Below, one piece after another: positions 42,252-45,254 of a stretch of 64,000 bases of DNA. The notes beneath the pieces were generated by a model. That model was not told the DNA's origin. It worked only from the letters and a program-made list of their open reading frames with translations, and searched no databases. The stretch is from Trichococcus paludicola (GTDB lineage: Bacteria > Bacillota > Bacilli > Lactobacillales > Aerococcaceae). Each line of letters starts with the position of its first letter. The first letter of the stretch is position 1. The position numbers were made by a program, and so were the translations under genes. The stretch lies in the NCBI RefSeq assembly GCF_003052295.1, contig NZ_QBLC01000002.1, positions 310,001-374,000 of the forward strand. Direction: 5' to 3'.

Positions 42252-42728
42252 TTAAACGATTTCAGAATAAATATCTTTCACATTTTTTTCTGGATCGATT
42301 ACAATATATAATTGGTTTTCTGATGAAACGAATGAAGATTGATGTTCATTGTCGAATCCATCGGTATCCAATGCTTTGTAAGGGAAGTAGATGCGGTCCA
42401 CTTCTACAATGACGTCGGATTTTGGATGATCCTCATCTTGGTACAGGATATCCATTTTTTCGATGTCCTGATGGCTCGCAACGCGCTCGAACATGCCTTG
42501 TTCAAGCCCGCCCAAGTTGATATCGCTCGTATTGACGTGATCTGCTTCTTGGTTAATTTCGATACGCAAAGATTCGCAAGGGTGGATTTCTTGGAAATCA
42601 CTGTTTCCGATTCGGCCGTAGCTCGTTGTGACTTGTTTGATCCATAGATCTCCGATATATTCACGCTTGATCGTCCATGTTTCGCCGTTTCTAAAAATAA
42701 ATCTCAAACCTGTCATTACTTTTTTCAT
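42252..42728 (-). CDS. Hypothetical soluble protein, 158 residues
   Basis: I do not recognise this protein. From the ATG at 42728 (GGAG 8 nt upstream) it begins MKKVMTGLRFIFRNGETWTIKREYIGDLW, then has an acidic middle region (QDEDHPKSDVIVEVDRIYFPYKALD) and ends DIYSEIV. There is no signal peptide, membrane helix or cysteine cluster. The N-terminal strand-rich FRNGETWTI pattern suggests a small beta-domain. It appears monocistronic, with an extended -10 (TGATAAAAT, 42770-42775) and a strong terminator, so it is likely expressed. Confidence 0.75.
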   Translation of the reverse strand: MKKVMTGLRFIFRNGETWTIKREYIGDLWIKQVTTSYGRIGNSDFQEIHPCESLRIEINQEADHVNTSDINLGGLEQGMFERVASHQDIEKMDILYQDEDHPKSDVIVEVDRIYFPYKALDTDGFDNEHQSSFVSSENQLYIVIDPEKNVKDIYSEIV

Positions 42729-42840
42729 CGAAATCACTCCTGATATATTTACTTTTTGAATATGTAACTATTTTATCATATTTTTTATCAAGTGGGTACC
42801 CATACACTTCCGATGATGAGAAAAAAAGTAAGTTAAGTTG

Positions 42841-44406
42841 CTATAGACTATCCATGAATTCATTTGCGTTGACGACTGCCCTTGTGTGCTTCGCCGATGC
42901 GATTTCATGGCCTTGTGAATGGGCCGCGCATTCGAAGAAATATTTATTTCCTCTGTGTTCCGTCACTCTGACCGTCACCGTTATTTCTGAGTGGATGGGA
43001 GAAGCTTTTTTGTGATGCAGATCACAGTGTATCCCGACTGTCGTATCGCCTTCGGAAAGATGTTCCTTGACGATTCCCATACAGGCATTTTCGATCATGG
43101 CCAACAATGCCGGCGTTGCCAGAACCGGCAATGTGCCCGAACCGATTTCGGAAGCCAAATCCTTTTGTCCGACGGTATAGGAGGCTACGAATGTCTCATC
43201 CAAATAAATCATCCTTCTTTTCATAATGAAATCCCTTAGTGCGAGATGACTATTCTCCAGTTTGTTTGCCAACACCAAGGTTTTTAGTTCTTCGAATATC
43301 TCGCCCACAAAAGGACCGCCACGTTTGATGCCCAGCAAGGACAGCAATTCTTTTCCGTCCAAGGCCAAATCTTTCAGCGTATGGATCGGCATGGATTCGT
43401 TTAATTCGATCAAGTTTTCGCTCTGGTTCGGCAAACCGAACCCTTCGATGATGGCTTCTATCTGCATGGCTATTTCGATCCCTGTTTCGAACAGGAGTGG
43501 ATAGTCCCAGAATTGTTGCAGGCGTTTGTTGAGTGCCTGCACGCCTATGCGTATATCCATGATTTCCTTGCGGGAACACTTCCATTGGCGCAAAAATGGT
43601 TCGATCGCATCGTTCTTCAGATCAAGGAAATGGATCAATACAGTCCAAGCAATCGTTGTCCCTTTGAATTGCAGCGGAAAAAGGGCCAAGTCGATCAATG
43701 CCTTTTCCCGATTTTGGAAACCGGGACACATCTGGAATAAACGTGTTTCGACAAAAAATTTGATTCCGCCCTTGCGGTTTCTTCCGATCAGAAGCTTATT
43801 CCACTCTTCGCGCACGCGCTCTACCGCGATTTTTGAAAGGAGCGGATGGTACTCGACGATGGCTTCCTTCGTTGCTTTTTCGATTTCAAAATCCAACTGA
43901 CTCACAAACCTGGCTGCGCGCATCATGCGCAAAGCATCTTCCCTGAAGCGTTCTTCCGGGTTGCCTACTGCCCGAATCAATTTGTTCGCCAAGTCCTCCT
44001 GCCCGTTGAAGTAGTCTTTGATATTCCCATGGCGGTCGATTGCAATTGCATTGATCGTAAAGTCGCGCCTTTTCAAATCATCCTGCAGACTGCGCACATA
44101 CTGGACTTTCTCTGGTCTGCGGAACTTCTCATACTTTGATTCTGTCCGGAAAGTTGTTATTTCGTAAGTCTCACGCTCATGTAAAACCATCACCGTTCCA
44201 TGTTGGATGCCTACATCGAAGGTGATCGGGAAGATCCGCTGAATTTCTTCAGGCATAGCGCTCGAGGCGATGTCTACATCCGAAATATCCAGATGAAGCA
44301 GCGTGTCGCGCACACTTCCCCCAACAAAGTAGGCCTCATATCCGGCCTGTTCGATGGCTTCGATGATGGGTATCGCTTTTTGAAATTCCGGTGCGTTTAT
44401 GATCAT
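42841..44406 (-). CDS. cca: CCA-adding tRNA nucleotidyltransferase fused to an FlK-like thioesterase domain
   Basis: 521 residues, against about 400 for Firmicute CCA enzymes. Residues 1-397 are a class II CCA-adding enzyme: [10 protein letters not shown] with DVDIASSA (catalytic Asp pair), [26 protein letters not shown], then the helical neck and body. From about residue 399 the chain continues with almost no linker into a hotdog domain of the fluoroacetyl-CoA thioesterase (FlK) type. T431, E439, G458, H465 and R509 match FlK T42, E50, G69, H76 and R120 with a constant offset of 389, but the FlK lid phenylalanines (F33, F36) are absent. The ATG overlaps the dapB stop (ATGA). An AAGAAGG site lies 9 nt before an in-frame TTG at 43203, so a free thioesterase could also be made. 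Confidence 0.9.
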
Positions 44407-45191
44407 AGGAAGTTTTCCAATCCATAGATCAGGCGATCGATTTCCATTACTTTTCTGCAGGAAAGGGCTACACCGTTCATGAAAGAGTCGCGGTCATATG
44501 AATCGTGGCGGATGATCAAGCCTTCTCCTGCGCTTCCGAATTGCACTTGCTGATGCGCAACTAGGCCTGGTAAGCGGACACTATGGATTTTCATACCATG
44601 GTAATCAGCCCCTCTTGCGCCTTCGATCAATTCTTTCTCTTCCGGATGCCCTTGTGGATGGTCGCCTCTCACTTCATAAATCAATTCGGCTGTTTTTATG
44701 GCAGTACCGCTTGGCGCATCCAACTTGTTGTCATGATGCAATTCCATGATTTCCACGTTCGGGAAATATTTTGCTGCTTTTGCGGCGAATTCCATCATCA
44801 ACACGGCACCAATCGCAAAATTAGGCGCAATCAAGCCTCCCAGACCCAACTCTTTTGAGTAGTTGGTCAATTCTTCAAGTTGTTCGCTGGAAAATCCGGT
44901 AGTGCCGATTACAGGACGCATACCGTTTTCAAGGGCGAAACGTGTATTGTCATAGGCCGCATCCGGTCTTGAAAAATCAATCCAAACATCAGCGTCAACT
45001 TCCTTGACGAGGGCCGCTTTATCACTGTACACTCTCACAGGATTGCCGGCATATTGCGGCAATTCATCGAGCTGCTTCTCTTTTGCGAAAGGATCGTATA
45101 CAGCCGCCAAAGTAAAGTCTTCCTGACGCAAGACCATATTTGTGCAGGCGGTTCCCATTTTGCCTTTAAATCCAGAAACTACTATTTTCAT
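44403..45191 (-). CDS. dapB: 4-hydroxy-tetrahydrodipicolinate reductase
   Basis: Second-stage enzyme of lysine/diaminopimelate synthesis, NAD(P)H dependent, 262 residues. The N-terminal Rossmann motif is [12 protein letters not shown]; the catalytic segment is [15 protein letters not shown], with the His-His pair and the substrate-binding Lys. The start ATG at 45191 follows GGAAGGGA; 17 in-frame codons upstream are not part of the family. It overlaps cca by four bases and lies 63 nt behind reoY. Diaminopimelate feeds peptidoglycan, matching the cell-wall role of ReoY. Confidence 0.97.
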
Positions 45192-45254
45192 TCCACACGT
45201 TCCCTTCCGTTTAACGCTGTTGGCACACATGTTCCGCACCATATCCGCGTTTTA

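Follow-up and report, generated by a model that had tools for sequence, protein, structure and literature searches.

A single reading frame for a CCA-adding enzyme and a FlK-type domain

The window, a stretch of 64,000 nucleotides from Trichococcus paludicola, carries on its minus strand a single open reading frame in which a hotdog domain of the FlK type comes after a class II CCA-adding enzyme (Table 1). The coordinates in the initial annotation are borne out, as is its reading of the first part as a complete class II enzyme: residues 7–398 match the CCA-adding enzyme model PRK13299 at 472.5 bits (NCBIfam, cut-off 290), which makes this part a full-length member of that family, and three Pfam domains are present, PolyA_pol (25–145), PolyA_pol_RNAbd (172–226) and tRNA_NucTran2_2 (246–394). 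The C-terminus, likened to FlK in the same annotation, belongs to Pfam family PF22636 by profile search (residues 412–514, 95.6 bits, E 2.3e-27, cut-off 27), and FlK was also matched in a phmmer search of the PDB (E 2.5e-7).

In the multiple alignment T431, E439 and H465 fall on the FlK triad T42, E50 and H76, and G458 and R509 on G69 and R120, the same pairing that had been proposed earlier. The lid phenylalanines F33 and F36 of FlK would correspond to G422 and T425 by constant offset, as the aligned FlK stretch began at residue 39. A model of residues 395–521 (pLDDT 79.9) has FlK 3p3f as its best PDB match in Foldseek (TM 0.82, E 8.1e-9); a full-length AlphaFold model was set aside (pLDDT 47.4, pTM 0.32). 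The fusion of a CCA-adding enzyme with a FlK-type hotdog domain is real and its hydrolase triad looks intact; the CCA half is predicted still to finish tRNA ends and the FlK half still to be a hotdog thioesterase. At the other end of the gene, the dapB stop and the cca start share four nucleotides (ATGA, 44403–44406), so that cca is probably coupled to dapB.

Table 1. Features of the fused gene and its neighbours (positions in the window)
Feature	Position	Strand	Remarks
Fused cca-FlK gene	42841..44406	minus	521 codons, 521 aa; ATG 44406-44404, stop 42843-42841
Class II CCA-adding enzyme part, residues 1-394	43225..44406	minus	Pfam and NCBIfam
Junction, residues 395-411 (17 residues)	43174..43224	minus	KRRxIYLDE shared by most fused copies, in Trichococcus and its sister genus alike
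Shine-Dalgarno-like AGAAGG, codons 397-398	43213..43218	minus	Junction alignment and SD scoring
Putative internal start codon TTG, codon 402	43201..43203	minus	Use as a start predicted
Putative free FlK-like product, residues 402-521 (120 aa)	42844..43203	minus	Predicted from start and SD analyses
FlK hotdog domain PF22636, residues 412-514	42865..43173	minus	Pfam; fold match of model
T431 (FlK T42), triad	43114..43116	minus	Multiple alignment
E439 (FlK E50), triad	43090..43092	minus	Multiple alignment
H465 (FlK H76), triad	43012..43014	minus	Multiple alignment
dapB, upstream neighbour	44403..45242	minus	End overlaps cca start by 4 nt
161-aa protein, conserved gene of the operon	42252..42737	minus	No Pfam or NCBIfam match

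Distribution and origin of the fusion

The fused frame is unbroken in all 13 Trichococcus genomes and in all six genomes of its sister genus (g12). A stop or frameshift near residues 395–405, which would have undone the continuous frame of the initial annotation, was looked for and found in none of these 19 genomes, and the family's remaining 57 genomes gave no match spanning both the CCA and the FlK parts. The whole fusion is also present in ten named records (nine Trichococcus and one titled Sedimentibacter), some of which are genomes already counted; three loci (L017, L021 and L022) are repeats of genomes present as other loci. The record titled Sedimentibacter sp. SX930 holds a gene 98 percent identical to that of the window and is probably a mislabelled genome. 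No other FlK above 60 bits in a frame of at least 480 aa was seen among the matches listed for a sample of 398 genomes of the class, or in 149 sampled genomes of the phylum; in one genome with a FlK match (G698) the frame has 457 aa. Literature searches covered such a fusion, FlK, internal translation starts and gene fusions that contain an internal site; among the papers listed, none describes a cca-FlK fusion in its title or the start of its abstract.

Elsewhere in the order FlK is encoded separately. In a survey of 198 of its genomes, 62 have a FlK match above the cut-off, and by a hand count from match positions FlK is fused to cca in two of these, lies directly downstream of it in 40 and lies elsewhere in 20 (including G228, where cca was not found). 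The 40 adjacent same-strand pairs belong to three families (f8 24, f3 11, f2 5); 38 of them were analysed further, L016 (G038) and L092 (G181) being omitted from the alignment, FlK tree, ortholog starts, neighbours and start distances. A FlK start was called in 37 of the 38 pairs, at a median of 1 nt past the cca stop; 12 overlap the stop, and in 10 the two genes share a frame. Upstream of the pair there is often a TPR gene, ypiB or dapB, which are genes of the window's own operon, and the 161-aa gene lies downstream of FlK in 35/38 pairs as well as in 5/6 sister-genus loci.

Phylogenies place the fused copies together, as one clade of 18 rows in the FlK tree (support 99/96; 14 of 20 loci from other Bacilli omitted) and one clade of 14 rows in the CCA tree (100/100). 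The nineteenth fused gene, L004, differs from L003 by 4 residues and 14 bases and is equal to it in the FlK part; it was omitted from the FlK alignment, dN/dS, both trees, the junction and synonymous scans and the start-plus-SD column scoring, and the CCA tree also omitted L003, L005, L006 and L008. Because the fused copies form a single clade in both trees, we infer one fusion, older than the split between Trichococcus and its sister genus. The ancestral state would have been a two-gene operon of cca followed by a small gene for a FlK-type acyl-CoA thioesterase. The pair would have merged into a single frame one time, in an ancestor shared by the two genera, probably when the cca stop was lost or the frame shifted slightly.

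A conserved start signal at the junction

The initial annotation considered one fused product and missed a conserved internal start, which is a candidate source of a separate FlK protein. In 11 of the 12 aligned Trichococcus genes (all but L013) the junction reads AAA AGA AGG ATG ATT TAT TTG GAT (GAC in L009), that is, an SD-like AGAAGG, 9 nt and then TTG at codon 402. Among the 18 aligned fused genes of both genera codon 402 is TTG in 15, ATG in L044, CTG in L014 and TTA in L046. When columns were scored for ATG, GTG or TTG preceded by an SD duplex at least as strong as −6 kcal/mol (a cut-off of our own choosing), codon 402 ranked first of 498 in-frame columns, with start and SD in 15/18 genes; L004 has the same site. 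The position is also that expected from the unfused genes, whose starts (taken as the candidate with the best SD among those 11–40 residues upstream of the GSG motif) lie 17–21 residues before that motif in 37/38 cases, codon 402 lying 20 before it.

We compared this signal with random expectation in nine of the 18 fused genes, nine near copies from Trichococcus having been dropped. Synonymous resampling with the amino acids fixed gave a mean of 0.33 lineages with start and SD and never (0/4000) the six found among these nine lineages, which share ancestry and so are not independent. Codon shuffles over whole genes matched the site in 0/400 cases, and matched it anywhere in the gene in 2/400. 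The SD persists even though its letters differ (AAAAGAAGG, AAGAGGAGA, AAGAGGAGG). In 12 further settings the site itself was equalled in 0–2 of 300 shuffles throughout, and the raw synonymous-conservation scan has its minimum at the junction both for all 18 genes and for Trichococcus. By these comparisons an in-frame SD and start are conserved at codon 402 beyond codon choice, with gene-wide results weaker in some settings.

That weakness is best seen by separating the two kinds of test, as the site tests use the position predicted from the orthologs and the gene-wide tests ignore it. Gene-wide, the full 16S tail gave 2 to 36/300 (the sister genus alone 30 and 36/300, not significant), no test with a shortened anti-SD was significant (54 to 240/300), and a summed-energy measure equalled codon 402 somewhere in the gene in 9/400 shuffles. 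The synonymous scan normalised for amino acids gave, again gene-wide, 44/2000 for all 18 genes, 776/2000 for Trichococcus and 1993/2000 for the sister genus. The SD duplex is just −6.4 in 11/18 genes, barely past the −6 cut-off, and the out-of-frame column 218 (+1) also scores 15/18. The 16S tail used for SD scoring occurs in 5/8 genomes tested, and no exact tail was obtained from 3/8, those of L013, L042 and L044 among them. Codon 402 does not stand out in RNA accessibility (ranks 63–480 of 495), and TTG is a weak start codon. ATG at codons 395 and 399 was considered as a second start and rejected, a good SD being found in just 1/18 and 0/18 genes respectively.

A rival reading is that the 521-aa fusion is the sole product, in which case the basic linker KRRxIYLDE would be kept as protein and the SD-like stretch would be a side effect of encoding Lys-Arg-Arg, or would make ribosomes pause between two folding domains. 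The linker is indeed largely conserved at the protein level in the 18 aligned fused genes, the frame is unbroken in all 19 genomes, and both the unremarkable accessibility and the non-significant part of the gene-wide tests agree with this reading. However, start and SD occur together in excess of what the amino acids require, the SD is retained while its letters vary, and codon 402 coincides with the position at which the free orthologs start. A pause site would need no start codon, yet 7/9 lineages have one at codon 402 compared to a mean of 2.8 under synonymous resampling (5/4000). We regard a single product as a serious possibility, though one that probably does not hold.

Selection and apparent decay of the FlK domain

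Among 55 pairs of 11 Trichococcus genes (more distant pairs are saturated), dN/dS is 0.074 for the FlK part and 0.039 for the CCA part, and by this measure purifying selection acts on the FlK domain. All 12 aligned Trichococcus rows (13 genomes) have an intact triad; in the six rows of the sister genus threonine is replaced by serine in five and histidine by tyrosine in one. In 16/19 genomes the fused copy is the sole FlK above the cut-off (these include two incomplete genomes, G000 at 63 percent and G007 at 51 percent).

The exceptions are three genomes of the sister genus (G023, G080, G081) that have a second, free FlK, and in these the fused domain scores 58–78 bits, compared to 91–103 bits in the three without. 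Two of the three have also lost the internal site, one having CTG with a weak SD and the other TTA; the third (L045) has the strongest internal site despite the free FlK in its genome. All three fused copies (L014, L045 and L046) have lost the GSG motif and kept the fusion. As these rows possibly form one clade (CCA 93/74, FlK 99/89), the drift counts as at least one event rather than three. The pattern of drift suggests that where the fused domain is alone it does the job of the free protein. L046 (G080) combines the tyrosine in place of the triad histidine, TTA at the internal start and a free FlK elsewhere, and its fused domain appears to be decaying within a fusion that is kept.

These same copies are what could be cited for the FlK part being a non-catalytic remnant, a merely dimerising tail of the CCA-adding enzyme, since L046 is without the histidine and the G69 equivalent and all three are without GSG, with the fusion still there. 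We consider this improbable, as the triad is intact in every aligned Trichococcus row and, with serine for threonine in five, in 5/6 rows of the sister genus, the domain has a low dN/dS, and GSG loss in that genus is confined to genomes having a free FlK gene.

Functional context

In other Bacilli the neighbours of FlK relatives were read at 15 of 20 loci. A 2-oxoacid dehydrogenase E1 alpha-type gene is a neighbour in seven of these (a call based on one scanned protein, at L119, which was above the cut-off for PDH_E1_alph_x), at another locus the neighbour resembles an enoyl-CoA hydratase gene (best model PaaG, under cut-off), and aldehyde dehydrogenase-like genes are nearby in three (one read by eye); at one locus within the order FlK lies beside acetate kinase. 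These neighbourhoods fit a predicted acyl-CoA thioesterase of ordinary acyl-CoA metabolism. At six of the seven E1 alpha-type loci (L119, L124, L127, L130, L131, L132 and L135) an amino-acid dehydrogenase-like gene lies in between, a possible clue to the substrate of this thioesterase family.

Two readings of the fusion had been offered in the initial annotation. Expression coupling fits better, since FlK often sits beside cca in an operon in this order. The other is bolder and, in the form weighed here, has the FlK domain act on tRNA or a tRNA-linked ester, so that CCA addition would be tied to acyl or aminoacyl-tRNA metabolism. It can draw on the fusion itself and on the widespread cca/FlK neighbourhood, but the genes adjoining FlK relatives in other Bacilli point to acyl-CoA metabolism and FlK lies away from cca in the 20 order genomes mentioned above. 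The link from tRNA 3' ends to acyl metabolism is left unsupported, and we consider it very unlikely.

One gene, two predicted products

An assembly or sequencing error joining two genes, which might be suspected given that the window's genome is a 63 percent complete draft, is refuted by the recurrence of the same frame in 19 genomes and the ten named records, some of them shared.

We propose that two proteins, the fusion and a free FlK thioesterase, are most likely made from the gene. The former thioesterase gene would have kept its ribosome-binding site and start codon inside the frame, and ribosomes would also start at codon 402, giving the 120-aa free FlK in addition to the 521-aa fusion. 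For the account as a whole (a single operon-pair fusion, a retained internal start, and fusion plus free FlK as products) we estimate a probability of a little over one half (about 0.56).

FlK works as a dimer, and the fusion and the free form could therefore pair; the FlK half probably pairs with another FlK chain, and joint dimers of fusion and free protein may form. A further idea, which we put forward tentatively and rate below even odds, is that the start signal has been kept through two genera and that the fusion and the free thioesterase are both made and assemble via the hotdog dimer, with internal initiation setting the number of CCA-adding enzymes per thioesterase particle.

The locus may illustrate how a small protein stays available to a bacterium in separate form once its gene has been absorbed by a neighbour, and the unfused operon counterparts of the fusion are still present in related families. 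A gene for a CCA-adding enzyme also carries, in 16/19 genomes, the sole FlK found.

Comparison with known systems

The T. paludicola domain resembles FlK (PDB 3p3f, 3kv7) in its predicted hotdog fold (TM 0.82), in the aligned Thr/Glu/His triad and in the residues equivalent to G69 and R120. It differs in being fused to a CCA-adding enzyme, in having approximately 23 percent identity over the structural match, and in that the lid phenylalanines appear, by offset, to be absent; nothing points to fluoroacetyl-CoA as its substrate. Further counterparts are the free-standing FlK-like proteins encoded right after cca in the same order, which share the operon place, the triad and a start within a few residues of codon 402, but are made as separate proteins only. 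On the other side of the junction, the head and body domains of the fusion are those of the class II CCA-adding enzyme PRK13299, to which the fusion adds approximately 120 C-terminal residues.

Translation from an internal start, giving a full and a shortened product, is known for other bacterial genes, and the fusion has in common with them an in-frame internal SD and start. It differs from them in that its putative internal site appears to have been retained from what was once a gene of its own. The parts of the fusion are of known kinds, and the surprising element would be this kept internal start.
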